Of a DNA stretch of 64,000 nucleotides, positions 49,456-55,772 are shown piece after piece. The DNA is from Candidatus Planktophila sulfonica (GTDB lineage Bacteria; Actinomycetota; Actinomycetes; Nanopelagicales; Nanopelagicaceae), in contig NZ_CP016773.1 of NCBI RefSeq assembly GCF_002288065.1, positions 558,001-622,000 of the forward strand. The letters run 5' to 3'. Each line of letters opens with the position of its first letter. Position 1 is the first letter of the stretch. The position numbers and the translations under genes were made by a program. The notes beneath the pieces were generated by a model, which saw nothing but the letters and a program-made list of their open reading frames with translations, was not told the DNA's origin and did no database searches.

Positions 49456-49485
49456 TTGGCGAGGCTCAGCGAATTACGACACAAT
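49456..49485 (+). promoter_or_regulatory. sufR promoter (-35 TTGGCG, -10 CACAAT)
   Basis: TTGGCG (49456-49461) and CACAAT (49480-49485) are 18 bases apart, and the -10 ends 6 bases before GTG 49492, giving a leaderless suf transcript. The CACAA of the -10 is also the left arm of the candidate SufR operator. Confidence 0.5.
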
Positions 49486-49494
49486 ACTGTTGTG
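49480..49494. promoter_or_regulatory. Candidate SufR operator CACAA-N5-TTGTG
   Basis: A perfect 5-bp inverted repeat with a TACTG spacer. The left arm is in the -10 box and the right arm includes the GTG start codon of sufR. SufR-type regulators bind comparable short inverted repeats. Binding here would block polymerase. Inferred. Confidence 0.5.
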
Positions 49495-50178
49495 AAAATC
49501 GATGACCTCAGCACCCGCGAAGCTATCGCGCGTTCCGTCCTCGAAAATGGCCCCTCTACAGCGGTCGTTCTGGGGGAGCGCCTTGGGCTGACTCCCGCTG
49601 GTATCCGCAGACACCTCGACCTCTTGGTCGCTGACTCAATTCTCGAAGCCCGCGAACCGCATCAGGCGATAAGCCGTGGGCGCGGACGACCATCCAAGGT
49701 ATTTGTGATGACCGATTCTGGCCGCGAAAAGTTTGAACATTCCTATGACGATCTCGCAGTTGCAGCCTTGAAATTTATGTCAGCACAATCTGGCGAACAT
49801 TTAGTCAAAGCATTTGCGCAATCTCGCGCCGACGATATCGAACGTAAAGCAACGCTCGCTCTGGCAAAACGTGCCAATAAATCAGAAGCACTCGCAACTT
49901 TTCTTACTGAACAAGGTTACGCAACAAGCATTGAAAGCCGTCCTTTAGGCGAGCAGTTATGTCAGCACCACTGCCCAATTGCGCACGTTGCCGCAGAATT
50001 CCCGCAACTCTGTGAGGCAGAGACTGAAGCTTTCTCCCGTGTTCTTGGAACACACGTTCAACGTTTAGCAACTATCGCTCATGGCGATGGCGTTTGCACT
50101 ACTTACATCCCCAACCTCACCAAGCAACCAAAGAAGATCAATTCAGGAAAACTAACCGCTGGAAAGGCGTCCTCATGA
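49492..50178 (+). CDS. sufR: SufR-like Fe-S-sensing transcriptional regulator
   Basis: Regulator of 228 residues. The N-terminal winged helix is about 1-80 ([34 protein letters not shown]). The C-terminal half holds Cys residues in [25 protein letters not shown], the cluster-binding set of SufR. It probably represses the suf operon when Fe-S clusters are plentiful. I chose GTG 49492 because the TTG at 49456 would lie in the -35 box. It overlaps sufB by 4 bases. Confidence 0.87.
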
Positions 50179-51584
50179 CAACAGCACACCCAGAGCTCGA
50201 TGGCCTCGGAAATTACGAATACGGTTGGTCAGATAATAATGAAGCCAGCTCTAACGCGAAGCGCGGTCTCAGCGAAGAAGTTGTTCGTGACATCTCAGCG
50301 AAGAAGAGCGAACCTCAGTGGATGCTCGACCTTCGCCTCAAGGGCTTAGATCTCTTCTATAAGAAGCCGATGCCATCATGGGGATCAGATCTTTCCGGAA
50401 TTTTCTTCGACACCATCAAGTACTTCGTGCGCTCAACTGAGAAGCAGGCGACAACATGGGATGACTTGCCTGATGACATCAAGAACACATATGACCGTCT
50501 TGGAATTCCAGAAGCAGAAAAGCAGCGCCTTGTTTCAGGTGTAGCAGCTCAGTACGAATCAGAGGTTGTTTACCACTCAATCCGTGAAGATCTTGAGAAG
50601 CAAGGCGTTATCTTCCTTGATACAGATAGCGGTCTAAAGCAGCACCCAGAACTCTTCAAGGAGTACTTCGGTTCAGTTATTCCTGTTGGCGACAACAAGT
50701 TTGCAGCTCTCAACACATCTGTATGGTCTGGTGGATCATTTATCTATGTACCAAAGGGCGTACATGTAGATATTCCATTGCAGGCTTACTTCCGTATCAA
50801 TACCGAAAATATGGGTCAGTTCGAACGTACTTTGATTATTGCGGATGAAGATTCATACATTCACTATGTAGAAGGTTGCACAGCTCCAATCTACAAGTCA
50901 GATTCACTTCACTCAGCAGTTGTTGAAATCATCGTCAAGAAGGGTGCACGTGTTCGTTACACAACCATCCAAAACTGGTCGAACAACGTTTATAACTTGG
51001 TAACAAAGCGCGCAACATGTGCAGAGGGCGCAACCATGGAATGGGTCGATGGAAATATCGGCTCGAAGGTCACCATGAAGTACCCAGCTGTCATGTTGAT
51101 GGGTCCACATGCAAAGGGTGAAACTCTTTCACTCGCATTTGCAGGTCCTGGTCAGCACCAGGATTCAGGAGCGAAGATGGTTCACGCAGCTCCTTACACA
51201 TCATCTTCAGTTATCTCTAAATCTGTAGCTCGCGGAGGCGGACGTACTTCATACCGCGGACTTGTTCAGGTACAAGAAGGCGCTCACCACTCTGCCAGCA
51301 CAGTTAAGTGCGATGCACTTCTTGTCGACACAATCTCTCGTTCAGATACATACCCTTATGTTGATATCCGCGAAGATGATGTCTCTATGGGTCACGAAGC
51401 AACCGTTTCGAAGATCTCCGATGACCAACTCTTCTATCTCATGTCACGTGGACTCAATGAAGATGAAGCGATGGCGATGATCGTTCGTGGATTCATCGAA
51501 CCAATCGCTCGCGAACTTCCAATGGAGTACGCACTCGAACTTAACCGCCTCATCGAACTTCAGATGGAAGGCGCAGTCGGATAA
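50175..51584 (+). CDS. sufB: Fe-S cluster assembly scaffold SufB
   Basis: SufB of 469 residues, the scaffold on which clusters are built with SufC and SufD. Motifs include the N-terminal [46 protein letters not shown], and [12 protein letters not shown]-terminal are [26 protein letters not shown] and VRGFIEPI. It has no intein, unlike some actinobacterial SufB. I chose ATG 50175 over a longer frame from 50094 because of the ATGA overlap with sufR. Confidence 0.96.
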
Positions 51585-52675
51585 TGTCTACATTGCAATC
51601 AAATCTTCTTGAAAACCATACGCCTACGGGCCGTGAAGAAGCGTGGCGCTTTACACCGCTCAAGCGTCTCGGTGGAATGCACGATGGAACAGCAACAGCT
51701 GTCGAACGTAATTCACTTGCGGTTAAAGGTTCACTTCCAACAGGTGCAACATTTACTCATCAAGATATCGATGCTGTTACCGAAAGCGATGATGCAATTG
51801 TTAACCGTATTCGCCAGTTCACAAGTAAAGGTGCAGTTCTTTCGATCGCTGCTAATGCAGAGATTGCAGAACCAGTCTTTCTCAATCGCGCAGCTTTCGG
51901 TACAGATTCAGCTGAACTCTCACGCGTACTGATCAAAGCTGGCAACCACTCGAAATCAGTAGTTGTTATTGAGAACTCGGGAGATATGCACCTCGCTGAA
52001 GACCTTGAAATCGTGGTCGAGCCAGGCGCTCATCTGACTCTCATCGCTCTACAAGAATGGGGATCAAAAACCATTCATGCAGCGCGACACCATGCAATCG
52101 TTGATCGCGATGCCACATTTAAGTCAATCGTTGTCACTGTTGGGGGAGATGTAGTTCGTCTACTTCCAACCGTTGACTTCATTGCACCAGGCGCGTCTTG
52201 CGATCTCTCAGGTGTTTACTTTGCAACAGCCGGACAATTCTTCGAACACCGCATGTTCGTTGATCACAAGGTTCCCAATGCAAAGTCACGCGTTAACTAC
52301 AAGGGCGCACTTGCTGGCGATAAGGCACACACTGTCTGGATCGGCGATGTCTTTATCCGCGCCGCCGCTGAAGGCACAGATACCTATGAGCTCAACCGCA
52401 ACTTGTTGCTCTCTGATGGAGCACGCGCGGATTCAGTACCTAACCTCGAAATCGAAACTGGTGAAATCGTTGGAGCAGGTCACGCCTCTACAACTGGTCG
52501 CTTCGATGATGAACAACTCTTCTACTTAATGTCACGCGGAATCAATATGGACGATGCGCGTCGTCTTGTTGTTCGTGGCTTCTTCAATGAGATTGTCTCT
52601 GAAATCGGTATCGAAGAAGTTCAGGAGCGCATCATGGCTCGCATCGATGATGAACTGGCAAAGGCAGGTAAGTAA
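51584..52675 (+). CDS. sufD: Fe-S cluster assembly protein SufD
   Basis: SufD of 363 residues, a SufB paralogue that completes the SufBC2D complex. N-terminal GREEAWRFTPLKRL and C-terminal [34 protein letters not shown] are family motifs. HRMFVDHKVPNAKSRVNYKG is the beta-helix core. The ATG shares one base with the sufB stop, and the stop shares one base with the next gene. Confidence 0.95.
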   Translation: MSTLQSNLLENHTPTGREEAWRFTPLKRLGGMHDGTATAVERNSLAVKGSLPTGATFTHQDIDAVTESDDAIVNRIRQFTSKGAVLSIAANAEIAEPVFLNRAAFGTDSAELSRVLIKAGNHSKSVVVIENSGDMHLAEDLEIVVEPGAHLTLIALQEWGSKTIHAARHHAIVDRDATFKSIVVTVGGDVVRLLPTVDFIAPGASCDLSGVYFATAGQFFEHRMFVDHKVPNAKSRVNYKGALAGDKAHTVWIGDVFIRAAAEGTDTYELNRNLLLSDGARADSVPNLEIETGEIVGAGHASTTGRFDDEQLFYLMSRGINMDDARRLVVRGFFNEIVSEIGIEEVQERIMARIDDELAKAGK

Positions 52676-52971
52676 TGTCTGATTTAGCTTTCTCATCACT
52701 TCAAGCGGGCAAGCCTGTCCGTATCGAAAAGAATGGTGAATCCATCTGCGTCACTCGCGTGGGCGATGAAGTATTTGCTATCAACGATATCTGCAGCCAT
52801 TCGGATGCATCCCTTTCAGAAGGCGATGTCACAGATTTCAAGATCGAATGTTGGCTCCATGGCGCTGAGTTCGATCTACGCACAGGAGAGGCGCTAACAC
52901 CTCCTGCAGTAGCCCCAGTAAAGACCTATTCAGTAACTGTCGACGGAGACTCCGTCACGGTAGAGATGTAA
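52675..52971 (+). CDS. Rieske-type ferredoxin in the suf operon
   Basis: Small Rieske protein of 98 residues. The 2Fe-2S ligands are C-S-H (in DICSHSDAS) and C-W-L-H (in ECWLHGAEF), about 17 residues apart, as in non-heme oxygenase ferredoxins. It lies between sufD and sufC, a place that is conserved in many actinobacteria. It may supply electrons for cluster assembly or be an early client; the exact role is inferred. Confidence 0.92.
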   Translation: MSDLAFSSLQAGKPVRIEKNGESICVTRVGDEVFAINDICSHSDASLSEGDVTDFKIECWLHGAEFDLRTGEALTPPAVAPVKTYSVTVDGDSVTVEM

Positions 52972-52982
52972 CGGAGATAGAT

Positions 52983-53735
52983 ATGAGCACTCTAGAAATT
53001 CGCGGATTGAAAGTATCTGTCGATACCGAACAAGGTTCGATTGAAATCCTTAAGGGCGTAGACCTCACCATCAAGTCTGGTGAAACACACGCAATCATGG
53101 GACCAAACGGTTCAGGAAAGTCAACACTTGCTTACTCAATCGCCGGGCATCCTAAGTACACAATTACAGGTGGAACAGTCACACTCGATGGCGCAGATGT
53201 TCTCGAGATGTCTGTTGATGAGCGCGCTAAGGCGGGCCTCTTCCTAGCGATGCAATACCCAGTGGAAGTTCCTGGCGTATCAGTTTCAAATTTCTTGCGT
53301 ACAGCAGCTACAGCACTTCGCGGAGAAGCTCCAAAGCTTCGCGAGTGGGTAGGCGAAGTAAAGAGCGCAATGGAATCACTCAAGATGGATGCATCTTTTG
53401 CGCAACGTAACGTCAACGAAGGATTCTCTGGCGGCGAGAAGAAGCGCCACGAAATCATGCAGCTTGAGCTCCTCAAGCCAAAGTTTGCGATCCTTGATGA
53501 GACAGACTCAGGTCTCGATGTTGATGCGCTACGTATCGTCTCTGAAGGTGTTGTCCGCGCAAAGGCTGCCAACAACCACGGAATTCTCTTGATCACTCAC
53601 TACACACGCATCTTGCGTTACATCAAGCCTGACTTCGTACATGTATTTGCTAACGGTCGCATTGTTGAAGAAGGCGGACCAGAGCTTGCAGATAAGCTCG
53701 AAGCTAATGGTTATGCGGAGTACGTCACCGCTTAA
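52983..53735 (+). CDS. sufC: Fe-S cluster assembly ATPase SufC
   Basis: ABC-type ATPase of 250 residues, soluble, working with SufB and SufD. Walker A is GPNGSGKSTLAY (near 40). The signature is replaced by the SufC-type GFSGGEKKRHEIMQ, and Walker B is ILDETDSGLDVDAL. ITHYTRILRYIKPDFVHVF is a SufC hallmark. It lies 11 bases after the Rieske gene with GGAG before the ATG. Confidence 0.96.
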   Translation: MSTLEIRGLKVSVDTEQGSIEILKGVDLTIKSGETHAIMGPNGSGKSTLAYSIAGHPKYTITGGTVTLDGADVLEMSVDERAKAGLFLAMQYPVEVPGVSVSNFLRTAATALRGEAPKLREWVGEVKSAMESLKMDASFAQRNVNEGFSGGEKKRHEIMQLELLKPKFAILDETDSGLDVDALRIVSEGVVRAKAANNHGILLITHYTRILRYIKPDFVHVFANGRIVEEGGPELADKLEANGYAEYVTA

Positions 53736-53737
53736 CT

Positions 53738-54985
53738 ATGACATTTGACGCTCACACTATCGCTAAGGATTTTCCGATTCTTGATCGGACAATCCGCGAT
53801 GGCAAGCGCCTTGTTTATTTAGATTCTGGAGCAACGAGCCAGAAGCCAAATGTGGTGATTGATGCAGAATCTGATTTCTACAGACTTCACAACGCCGCTG
53901 TCCACCGTGGCGCCCATCAATTAGCTGAAGAAGCTACTGATGCCTATGAAGGTGCGCGCACCATCGTGGCCAACTTCCTCAACGCACATGTTGATGAAGT
54001 TGTCTTCACAAAGAGCGCTACTGAATCACTTAACTTAGTTTCCTATGCGATGGGTAATGCCGCTCCTGGTAATCGCTTCCACCTGAAGGCAGGGGATTCC
54101 ATTGTCATCACCGAGATGGAACACCATGCCAACCTCATACCTTGGCAACAGCTTGCAGCGCGCACAGGTGCAACGCTTAAGTGGTTCTCGGTAACTGAAG
54201 AGGGTCGTCTAGATCTTTCTAATATTGATTCAGTGATTGACTCGTCCACCAAGGTTGTTGCACTCACTCATCAATCAAATGTTCTCGGAACCATTAACCC
54301 ACTTGATGTAATCACGCGCCGTGCGCACGAAGTTGGCGCTGTTGTTGTGCTTGATGCCTGTCAGTCAGTTCCACATATGCCAGTCGATGTGAAGGCACTC
54401 GATATTGATTTCTTGGCATTCTCTGGGCATAAGGCAGTGGGGCCAACTGGAATTGGAATCTTCTGGGGGCGTTTAGAACTACTGGCAGATCTTCCACCGT
54501 TTCTTACTGGCGGTTCCATGATCGAAAACGTCACTATGGAATCTGCATCATGGGCTCAGGCTCCGAAGAAGTTTGAAGCAGGCGTTCCTAATATGGCGCA
54601 AGCCGTTGGATTGGGCGCTGCACTTAATTACTTAACGCAGATTGGCATGGATAACATCCATCGCCACGAAGTTGAACTCACTTCATATCTTCTCAATGGA
54701 CTTTCAGAGATTAAAGATCTGCGAATCATTGGACCAAAGACAACAGAGTTACGTGGGGGAGCCATCTCATTCACTCTCGGAGATATTCACCCACATGATC
54801 TAGGACAGTATCTCGATAGCCAAGGAATTGCCGTTCGTACTGGTCACCACTGTGCGTGGCCGCTTACTCGCAAACTTGGCGTTCCTGCAACTACTCGTGC
54901 TTCCGTTTATTTGTACAACACAACCGATGACCTTGATGCGCTCGTTGAGGGCGTACAAGGCGCACAGAAATACTTTGGTCGCTAA
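53738..54985 (+). CDS. sufS: Cysteine desulfurase SufS
   Basis: Group II cysteine desulfurase of 415 residues that takes sulfur from cysteine for clusters. N-terminal LVYLDSGATSQKPN, then HRGAHQLAEEATDAYE, are typical. The PLP Lys is in FSGHKAVGPTGIG, and the active-site Cys is in RTGHHCAWPL. Sulfur should pass to SufU, encoded next. The TAA stop shares one base with the sufU ATG. Confidence 0.96.
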   Translation: MTFDAHTIAKDFPILDRTIRDGKRLVYLDSGATSQKPNVVIDAESDFYRLHNAAVHRGAHQLAEEATDAYEGARTIVANFLNAHVDEVVFTKSATESLNLVSYAMGNAAPGNRFHLKAGDSIVITEMEHHANLIPWQQLAARTGATLKWFSVTEEGRLDLSNIDSVIDSSTKVVALTHQSNVLGTINPLDVITRRAHEVGAVVVLDACQSVPHMPVDVKALDIDFLAFSGHKAVGPTGIGIFWGRLELLADLPPFLTGGSMIENVTMESASWAQAPKKFEAGVPNMAQAVGLGAALNYLTQIGMDNIHRHEVELTSYLLNGLSEIKDLRIIGPKTTELRGGAISFTLGDIHPHDLGQYLDSQGIAVRTGHHCAWPLTRKLGVPATTRASVYLYNTTDDLDALVEGVQGAQKYFGR

Positions 54986-55428
54986 TGCAACTAGATAATC
55001 TCTATCAAGAGGTAATTCTTGATCACTATAAGAACCCACAGAACAAGAAGCTCAATCCGGTTTTCGATGCTCAGGTGCATCACATCAATCCAAGTTGTGG
55101 TGATGAAATCACTCTCAATGTGACGCTCGACGGCCAAACAGTGAAGAGCGTTTCATGGGATGGCGTCGGTTGCTCTATCTCTCAGGCAAGTGTTTCGATT
55201 TTGACCGATCTCTTGATCGGTAAAGACCTCACGCAGGCGCAAGTGATTGCTGATTCATTTATGCATTTGATGCAGAGCAAGGGCGCTGAAAAAGGAGATG
55301 AAAACCTTCTCGAAGATGCCGTAGCCCTGGCTGGTGTTTCTCAATACCCGGCACGAATTAAGTGTGCCCTCCTTGGTTGGATGGCCTTTAAAGATGCAAG
55401 CGTCCAAGCGCTAGCGAAGCAGAATTAA
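54985..55428 (+). CDS. sufU: SufU: Zn-dependent sulfur-transfer protein
   Basis: SufU of 147 residues. N-terminal LYQEVILDHYKNPQNKK is the family start. Conserved Cys residues are in NPSCGDEI, VGCSISQAS and IKCALLGW, with zinc-binding Asp in the first. It accepts persulfide sulfur from SufS in Gram-positive-type suf systems. Confidence 0.95.
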   Translation: MQLDNLYQEVILDHYKNPQNKKLNPVFDAQVHHINPSCGDEITLNVTLDGQTVKSVSWDGVGCSISQASVSILTDLLIGKDLTQAQVIADSFMHLMQSKGAEKGDENLLEDAVALAGVSQYPARIKCALLGWMAFKDASVQALAKQN

Positions 55429-55460: not shown

Positions 55461-55772
55461 ATGGTTGCAAAGATTGAAGATATCAACGAGGCGATGAAAG
55501 ATGTTGTCGACCCAGAACTTGGTATCAACGTTGTTGACCTTGGTCTCATCTACGACATGATGGTCGACGATAACAACATTGCAGTACTCAATATGACCCT
55601 CACTTCGGCGGCTTGCCCACTTCAAGATGTCATTGAAGATCAAACTCGTCAGGCACTTGCTCCATTTACCGACGATGTAAAAATCAACTGGGTATGGATG
55701 CCACCCTGGGGCCCTGACAAGATTTCAGACGATGGTCGCGAACAACTTCGCGCTCTCGGCTTCACTGTCTGA
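55461..55772 (+). CDS. sufT: SufT-type (DUF59/MIP18) Fe-S assembly factor
   Basis: DUF59 protein of 103 residues. VVDPELGINVVDLGLIYDM is the family motif, and the conserved Cys is in LTSAACPLQDV. WMPPWGPDKISDDGREQLRALGF is the usual tail. It is thought to help deliver Fe-S clusters to target enzymes. It ends the suf cluster. Confidence 0.93.
   Translation: MVAKIEDINEAMKDVVDPELGINVVDLGLIYDMMVDDNNIAVLNMTLTSAACPLQDVIEDQTRQALAPFTDDVKINWVWMPPWGPDKISDDGREQLRALGFTV

Follow-up and report, generated by a model that had tools for sequence, protein, structure and literature searches.

The short inverted repeat at the start of sufR very probably forms part of a larger, deeply conserved element, a predicted SufR operator. 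The repeat, CACAATACTGTTGTG (CACAA-TACTG-TTGTG), lies exactly at positions 49480-49494 of the + strand of the window, i.e. the whole 64 kb stretch of DNA that was analysed, and spans the -10 and the GTG start, as a sequence-only reading had described. There is a high likelihood that the element serves a leaderless sufR-suf operon as its SufR operator and that SufR also represses iron import of the efeU/fbpA type, where the identity of the binding protein, the lack of a leader and the direction in which control acts are what we infer from sequence comparison.

The sufR gene, its promoter and the suf operon

The sufR gene (49492-50178, + strand) encodes a SufR-type regulator of 228 aa with cysteines at positions 157, 161, 174 and 202, i.e. 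C-X3-C-X12-C-X27-C, the arrangement of actinobacterial 4Fe-4S ligands, and C-X12-C-X27-C is found in 96 of 96 full-length SufR proteins. The same spacing is given for the C. glutamicum SufR cysteines 171, 175, 188 and 216 (PMC11995493). Against NCBIfam TIGR02702 (SufR_cyano) the protein (P0001) scores 72.3 bits, below the cut-off of 178.8, and hence is not filed in that equivalog; it shows no Pfam family match, and no solved structure was matched at E 0.1. In family f32 SufR seems to have been lost, the class search giving no sufR match in 10 of the 11 genomes searched (G304, G313, G322, G340, G349, G366, G382, G389, G397, G405 and G428) and a marginal match in the other.

Downstream, and on the same strand, sufR is followed by sufB (50175-51584, with an ATGA overlap with the sufR stop), sufD (51584-52675), a Rieske-type ferredoxin (52675-52971, every match below its cut-off), sufC (52983-53735), sufS (53738-54985), sufU (54985-55428) and a SufT-like protein (55461-55772, below cut-off), the five genes sufB, sufD, sufC, sufS and sufU being assigned above cut-off. 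The genes overlap or lie close together, and sufR is a member of the suf operon.

The -10 element CACAAT (49480-49485, + strand) occupies -12 to -7, 6 nt from the GTG start codon (49492-49494, + strand), which is also the putative start of transcription. A possible, weak -35 element, TTGGCG (49456-49461, + strand), was picked out by eye with an 18-nt spacer. No ribosome site was seen by eye upstream of sufR, there is no other in-frame ATG, GTG or TTG within the first 40 codons, and sufR of the window is probably leaderless judging from this layout. All 125 sites of the family and 82 of the 85 others have GTG as start codon, and this near invariance fits a codon that doubles as operator; the proposal of an operator shared with the start codon of a leaderless mRNA gains support.

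Taken on its own, the repeat is not significant, since the bare CACAA-N5-TTGTG is near chance in the genome: there is a single copy in the window (0.14 expected, at least one copy in 13 of 100 shuffles), and the whole genome (1.34 Mb) holds 2 copies, compared with 3 for the reversed control. The second genomic copy was rejected as a target, as it lies inside a coding region (L002, NADH dehydrogenase subunit-like, named by eye).

Conservation and symmetry of the predicted operator

Conservation was followed in a non-random sample of 217 sufR loci, one per genome and with our own genome included, of which 67 were best-scoring, 120 were hand-chosen from match lists for genus and family spread, and 30 came from 32 hand-picked genomes. 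An iterated matrix finds the block AATTACGnnACAnTnnTGTTGTGAAA in 210 of the 217 loci across the class, with its GTG in the SufR frame in 209 of the 210; the seven loci where it is missing comprise two cut by contig ends, two of family f5, two of f29 and one of f41. In the window the full operator frame, GAATTACGACAC-AATACT-GTTGTGAAAATC, takes up 49471-49500 of the + strand (GAATTACGACACAATACTGTTGTGAAAATC), so that CACAA-N5-TTGTG is an off-axis reading within it. An operator in this place would be suited to direct self-repression of the suf operon, as had been suggested, and this part of the suggestion is supported.

Numbering the G of the sufR GTG as +1, the most constant positions among the 210 loci are A-11 (210), C-10 (203), G-3 (207), T-2 (209), G+1 (210), T+2 (210), G+3 (207) and A+5 (210), while -13, -12, -8, -6 and -5 are variable. 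The conserved stretch runs from -20 to +6 across the class and is wider than a -10; the operator covers the -10 and the putative start site, and is conserved together with sufR. The sequence GTTGTGAAA is exact in 125/125 family sites and 63/85 others, and AC-N6-GT in 125/125 and 74/85, respectively. The exact core CAAC-N6-GTTG is present at sufR in 47/125 family sites and 17/85 others and is absent from the window sufR site, which reads ACAC-AATACT-GTTG (ending at 49492), i.e. its left half-site is ACAC compared with CAAC in the reported SufR core.

The place of the repeat is conserved in relatives. Within our own genus 49 of 57 sites keep the exact CACAA-N5-TTGTG; for the whole family, with our own genus counted, the figure is 56 of 125, and for other families it is 9 of 85. 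These counts indicate that the conserved unit is the wider block rather than the repeat; the alignment of sufR upstream regions, proposed earlier as a check, upheld the operator but not the exact repeat.

The symmetry proposed for the repeat also had to be revised. Its axis falls at -5, whereas that of the S. avermitilis operator falls at -6.5, and on average 7.81 of 15 pairs are complementary at -6.5, the best axis (206 unique operators, 37 axes tried), against 5.83 at -7.5 and 5.67 at -5. The dyad axis supported by the relatives thus lies between 49485 and 49486, with a spacer of 6, and the original symmetry was off by 1.5 bp. Within family f29, -6.5 wins over -5 in 25 of 30 loci, loses in 4 and ties in one (L236, where the site is seemingly misplaced). 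In family f5 (L198, L201, L220 and L221) the operator is a long palindrome carrying no GTG, hence the sufR start of this family must be elsewhere. The right half of these sites mirrors the left, e.g. GAATTACGTCACAATAGTGTCACCTAATTC in L198, and the four f5 genomes without GTG at the site show 12, 9, 9 and 9 of 15 pairs at -6.5 versus 4, 4, 3 and 4 at -5. Five relatives from the same genus carry TACATT instead of CACAAT, which keeps a TAnnnT -10 and loses the left arm of the repeat. On the axis scores and this loss of the left arm, CACAA-N5-TTGTG was rejected as the functional dyad; axis scores, f5 sites and TACATT relatives together indicate that it is a by-product of TGTTGTG, which holds TGT twice.

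Sites in front of efeU and other iron-uptake genes

With up to 3 mismatches, the operator block occurs at three places in our own genome, so the genome search that had been called for yielded two more operator-like sites besides sufR, one of them in front of efeU. The efeU site, at 816652-816681 of the genome (computed from locus coordinates), is GAATTACGCAAC-ATCAGA-GTTGCGTAATTC, a perfect 12-bp palindrome with a spacer of 6 that contains the exact CAAC-N6-GTTG and ends 24 nt 5' of the efeU ATG. The promoter of efeU reads TTGCGT, 17 nt, TACTCT at -12 to -7 and then ATG, and since TTGCGT comes from the right arm of the palindrome, the operator covers the -35. The encoded EfeU iron permease passes NF041756 (321.7 bits, cut-off 255) and matches Pfam FTR1.

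The palindrome GAATTACGCAAC-N6-GTTGCGTAATTC, with up to 3 mismatches, is found in 143 of 151 family genomes and in all 17 genera, mostly once per genome, and the reversed control is rarely found. Among the family-scan matches listed, 68 sites (own included), 42 lie before efeU, 21 before an FbpA-like gene and 5 have no iron gene assigned. The 118 sites among the public-scan matches listed divide into efeU (76), FbpA-like (20), Arthrobacter FbpA-like (5), siderophore-type binding proteins (3, one by weak similarity) and none assigned (14), and among these listed matches the palindrome stands before efeU or fbpA in records titled Candidatus Planktophila, Nanopelagicaceae or acI. In 110 of the 118 efeU sites among the matches listed, 39, 40 or 41 nt separate the centre of the palindrome from the start of efeU. 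Two FbpA-like proteins, one of the family and one of Arthrobacter, match solved ferric-iron binding proteins (best E 4.7e-71 and 2.3e-138, respectively), and in NCBIfam the FbpA-like proteins have matches below cut-off only. Iron-uptake genes of the acI lineage are preceded by a cleaner version of the sufR site, which suggests that one sensor may serve both iron import and Fe-S cluster building.

The scans also returned matches of other kinds. In seven loci (L281, L285, L286, L320, L342, L357 and L368) genes for ferric or siderophore binding proteins are preceded, at other distances, by AATTACG..AC-N6-GT..CGTAATT, and the contigs among them whose titles were seen are Arthrobacter; the link with iron may extend outside the acI family. 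Five records (L266, L279, L289, L295 and L308) are titled Bifidobacterium breve, yet carry acI-type palindromes together with iron genes, and their titles look wrong. In L269 (titled Henriciella) and L348, AATTACGAAAC-N6-GTTTCGTAATT adjoins TonB-dependent receptor-like genes. By eye, some unassigned matches adjoin TetR-type genes in Bacillaceae, cyanobacteria and Achromobacter, and these are probably unrelated.

A matrix built from 62 unique efeU operators, our own genome excluded (6 of 103 efeU upstream regions, lacking CAAC-N6-GTTG, were dropped), gives the sufR site the top score of the 64 kb window, 16.1, the next best being -6.8, while 30 random windows reach at most 5.6; about 0.02 sites scoring at least 16 are expected per genome of this size (order-2 random sequence). 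In all 210 sufR loci no dyad scores higher than the sufR site, and the own efeU site scores 44.9. There is some circularity in this test, as a sufR-derived pattern served to find the efeU sites, which were then filtered for CAAC-N6-GTTG; free of that circularity are the perfect right arm in our own genome and the gene downstream of each site.

The third site, L250:1500-1529 (approximately 1126002-1126031 of our genome), is TTACGAAAC-AGAGTT-GTTGCGAAA and scores 16.2, about the same as sufR. It is flanked by a sulfonate-transporter-like gene (below cut-off) and an O-acetylhomoserine sulfhydrylase gene (above cut-off). Five relatives were sampled in 20 stretches of 20 kb each, placed by guessed gene order; the sulfhydrylase gene was not found there, and no dyad scoring at least 8 occurs in these 400 kb.

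Alternative explanations and known SufR systems

Conservation at sufR might reflect no more than the -10, transcription start and start codon that belong to any leaderless gene, the repeat being accidental, which would agree with the exact repeat being no commoner in the genome than the reversed control and with the five own-genus relatives that keep TAnnnT and lose the repeat. We consider this very unlikely, given that conservation extends from -20 to +6 across the class, beyond a -10, that the half-site recurs elsewhere as a palindrome, and that sufR starts with GTG in 207 of 210 loci whereas efeU, also leaderless by its promoter layout, has ATG in 89 and GTG in 15 of 104. A dyad acting in RNA, as hairpin or terminator, is more improbable still: although the efeU palindrome could fold as a 12-bp stem with a 6-nt loop, pairs 2 to 8 of 114 unique palindromes show 47 one-sided changes versus 3 two-sided (pairs 9 to 12 were fixed by selection), hence pairing is not kept by compensation. 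A leaderless sufR transcript would moreover leave most of the site upstream of the RNA, and for the initial 100 nt of the sufR mRNA folding is no better than in shuffled sequences (z -0.20); the hairpin was rejected on the one-sided changes and this folding value.

A different division of labour, with SufR acting at sufR and a separate iron regulator, a Fur-family protein being the likeliest, at the efeU/fbpA palindrome, is a less remote alternative, which we nevertheless regard as unlikely. Fur boxes are AT-rich and different in form, and the outer half GAATTACG is common to the efeU palindrome and the sufR operator. Of 101 family genomes only 3, from a single genus, have a DtxR-type regulator above cut-off, and our own has none. 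The Fur family is present in 97 of the 101, with two copies in our own genome, and could act on efeU; thus a Fur-type rival for efeU stands, against the exact CAAC-N6-GTTG core and spacer that the palindrome shares with reported SufR sites (PMC8593673, PMC11995493).

In S. avermitilis, SufR recognizes CAAC-N6-GTTG, whose first half overlaps the -10 and whose final G is the transcription start (PMC11995493), and the window operator resembles it in the spacer-6 dyad, the overlap of the first half with the -10, the position of the final G at the putative start site and sufR as first gene. It differs in the left half-site, ACAC instead of CAAC, in the outer half GAATTACG and the right half shared with the start codon, neither of which appears in the S. 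avermitilis description as excerpted from PMC11995493, and in the second target, efeU, predicted here. For C. glutamicum the predicted site is GAAC-N6-GTTG, and mutating the -10 inside it lowered expression, no derepression being seen (PMC11995493). The cyanobacterial SufR site is also CAAC-N6-GTTG (PMC8593673), core and spacer being common to the lineage studied here, but cyanobacterial sufR is divergent from the suf operon (PMC7058544), whereas here it is the operon's first gene. In M. tuberculosis, sufR (Rv1460) has a leaderless transcript, and a ChIP site is located 20 bp ahead of its start codon (PMC6034842); a leaderless transcript, a suf operon repressor and a site close to the start codon are also what is proposed here, while the iron-uptake target that we predict is not named for M. 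tuberculosis in the excerpt. Given the S. avermitilis and M. tuberculosis counterparts, the architecture of the sufR operator is already known, and the window contributes one further member. Repression is ascribed to holo-SufR and derepression to apo-SufR (PMC10848736), and the excerpt of PMC6255865 holds nothing on a SufR site.

In the open literature we found no paper on SufR in Planktophila or on SufR together with efeU, and the iron link may be reported elsewhere. IscR belongs to a protein family unrelated to that of SufR and its site is likewise unrelated. As an Fe-S regulator with a wide regulon, it is alike in that a single cluster sensor may link Fe-S assembly with further functions (PMC8593673).

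In the proposed mechanism, a SufR dimer with its 4Fe-4S cluster would bind the dyad centred at 49485/49486 (half-site GAATTACGnnAC, spacer 6), covering the -10 and the start site and so blocking RNA polymerase; once clusters are lost, SufR would release the DNA and the suf operon would be transcribed. The right half-site would double as the start codon region (GTTGTGAAA), and therefore departs from the ideal half-site, yet is nearly invariant. SufR would also bind the ideal palindrome GAATTACGCAAC-N6-GTTGCGTAATTC over the efeU -35, which in other lineages of the family would precede the gene of a ferric ABC binding protein, so that Fe-S assembly and the import of iron would be repressed and released together.

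A separate observation concerns the loci L168, L169, L172 and L188, which carry upstream of sufR sequences such as TTAGGCGGACCTTACTTGAA (L172). We take these to resemble DtxR/IdeR boxes, which suggests a second iron input to suf in the family of these loci.

The efeU and sufR sites give exact sequences for gel shift. A shared operator would explain why the GTG start of sufR is kept across a class, and would be a case of operator and start codon sharing bases. The acI lineage is among the commonest freshwater bacterial groups. That SufR is the main iron-economy regulator of acI-type freshwater actinobacteria, governing Fe-S assembly, efeU/fbpA import and, in this genome, perhaps sulfur supply via the third site, in a family nearly without DtxR-type regulators, is to us about as plausible as its opposite. 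If true, SufR would be an iron as well as Fe-S regulator in a common freshwater group, against the view of a 2021 review, as excerpted, that SufR is dedicated to the suf locus (PMC8593673).
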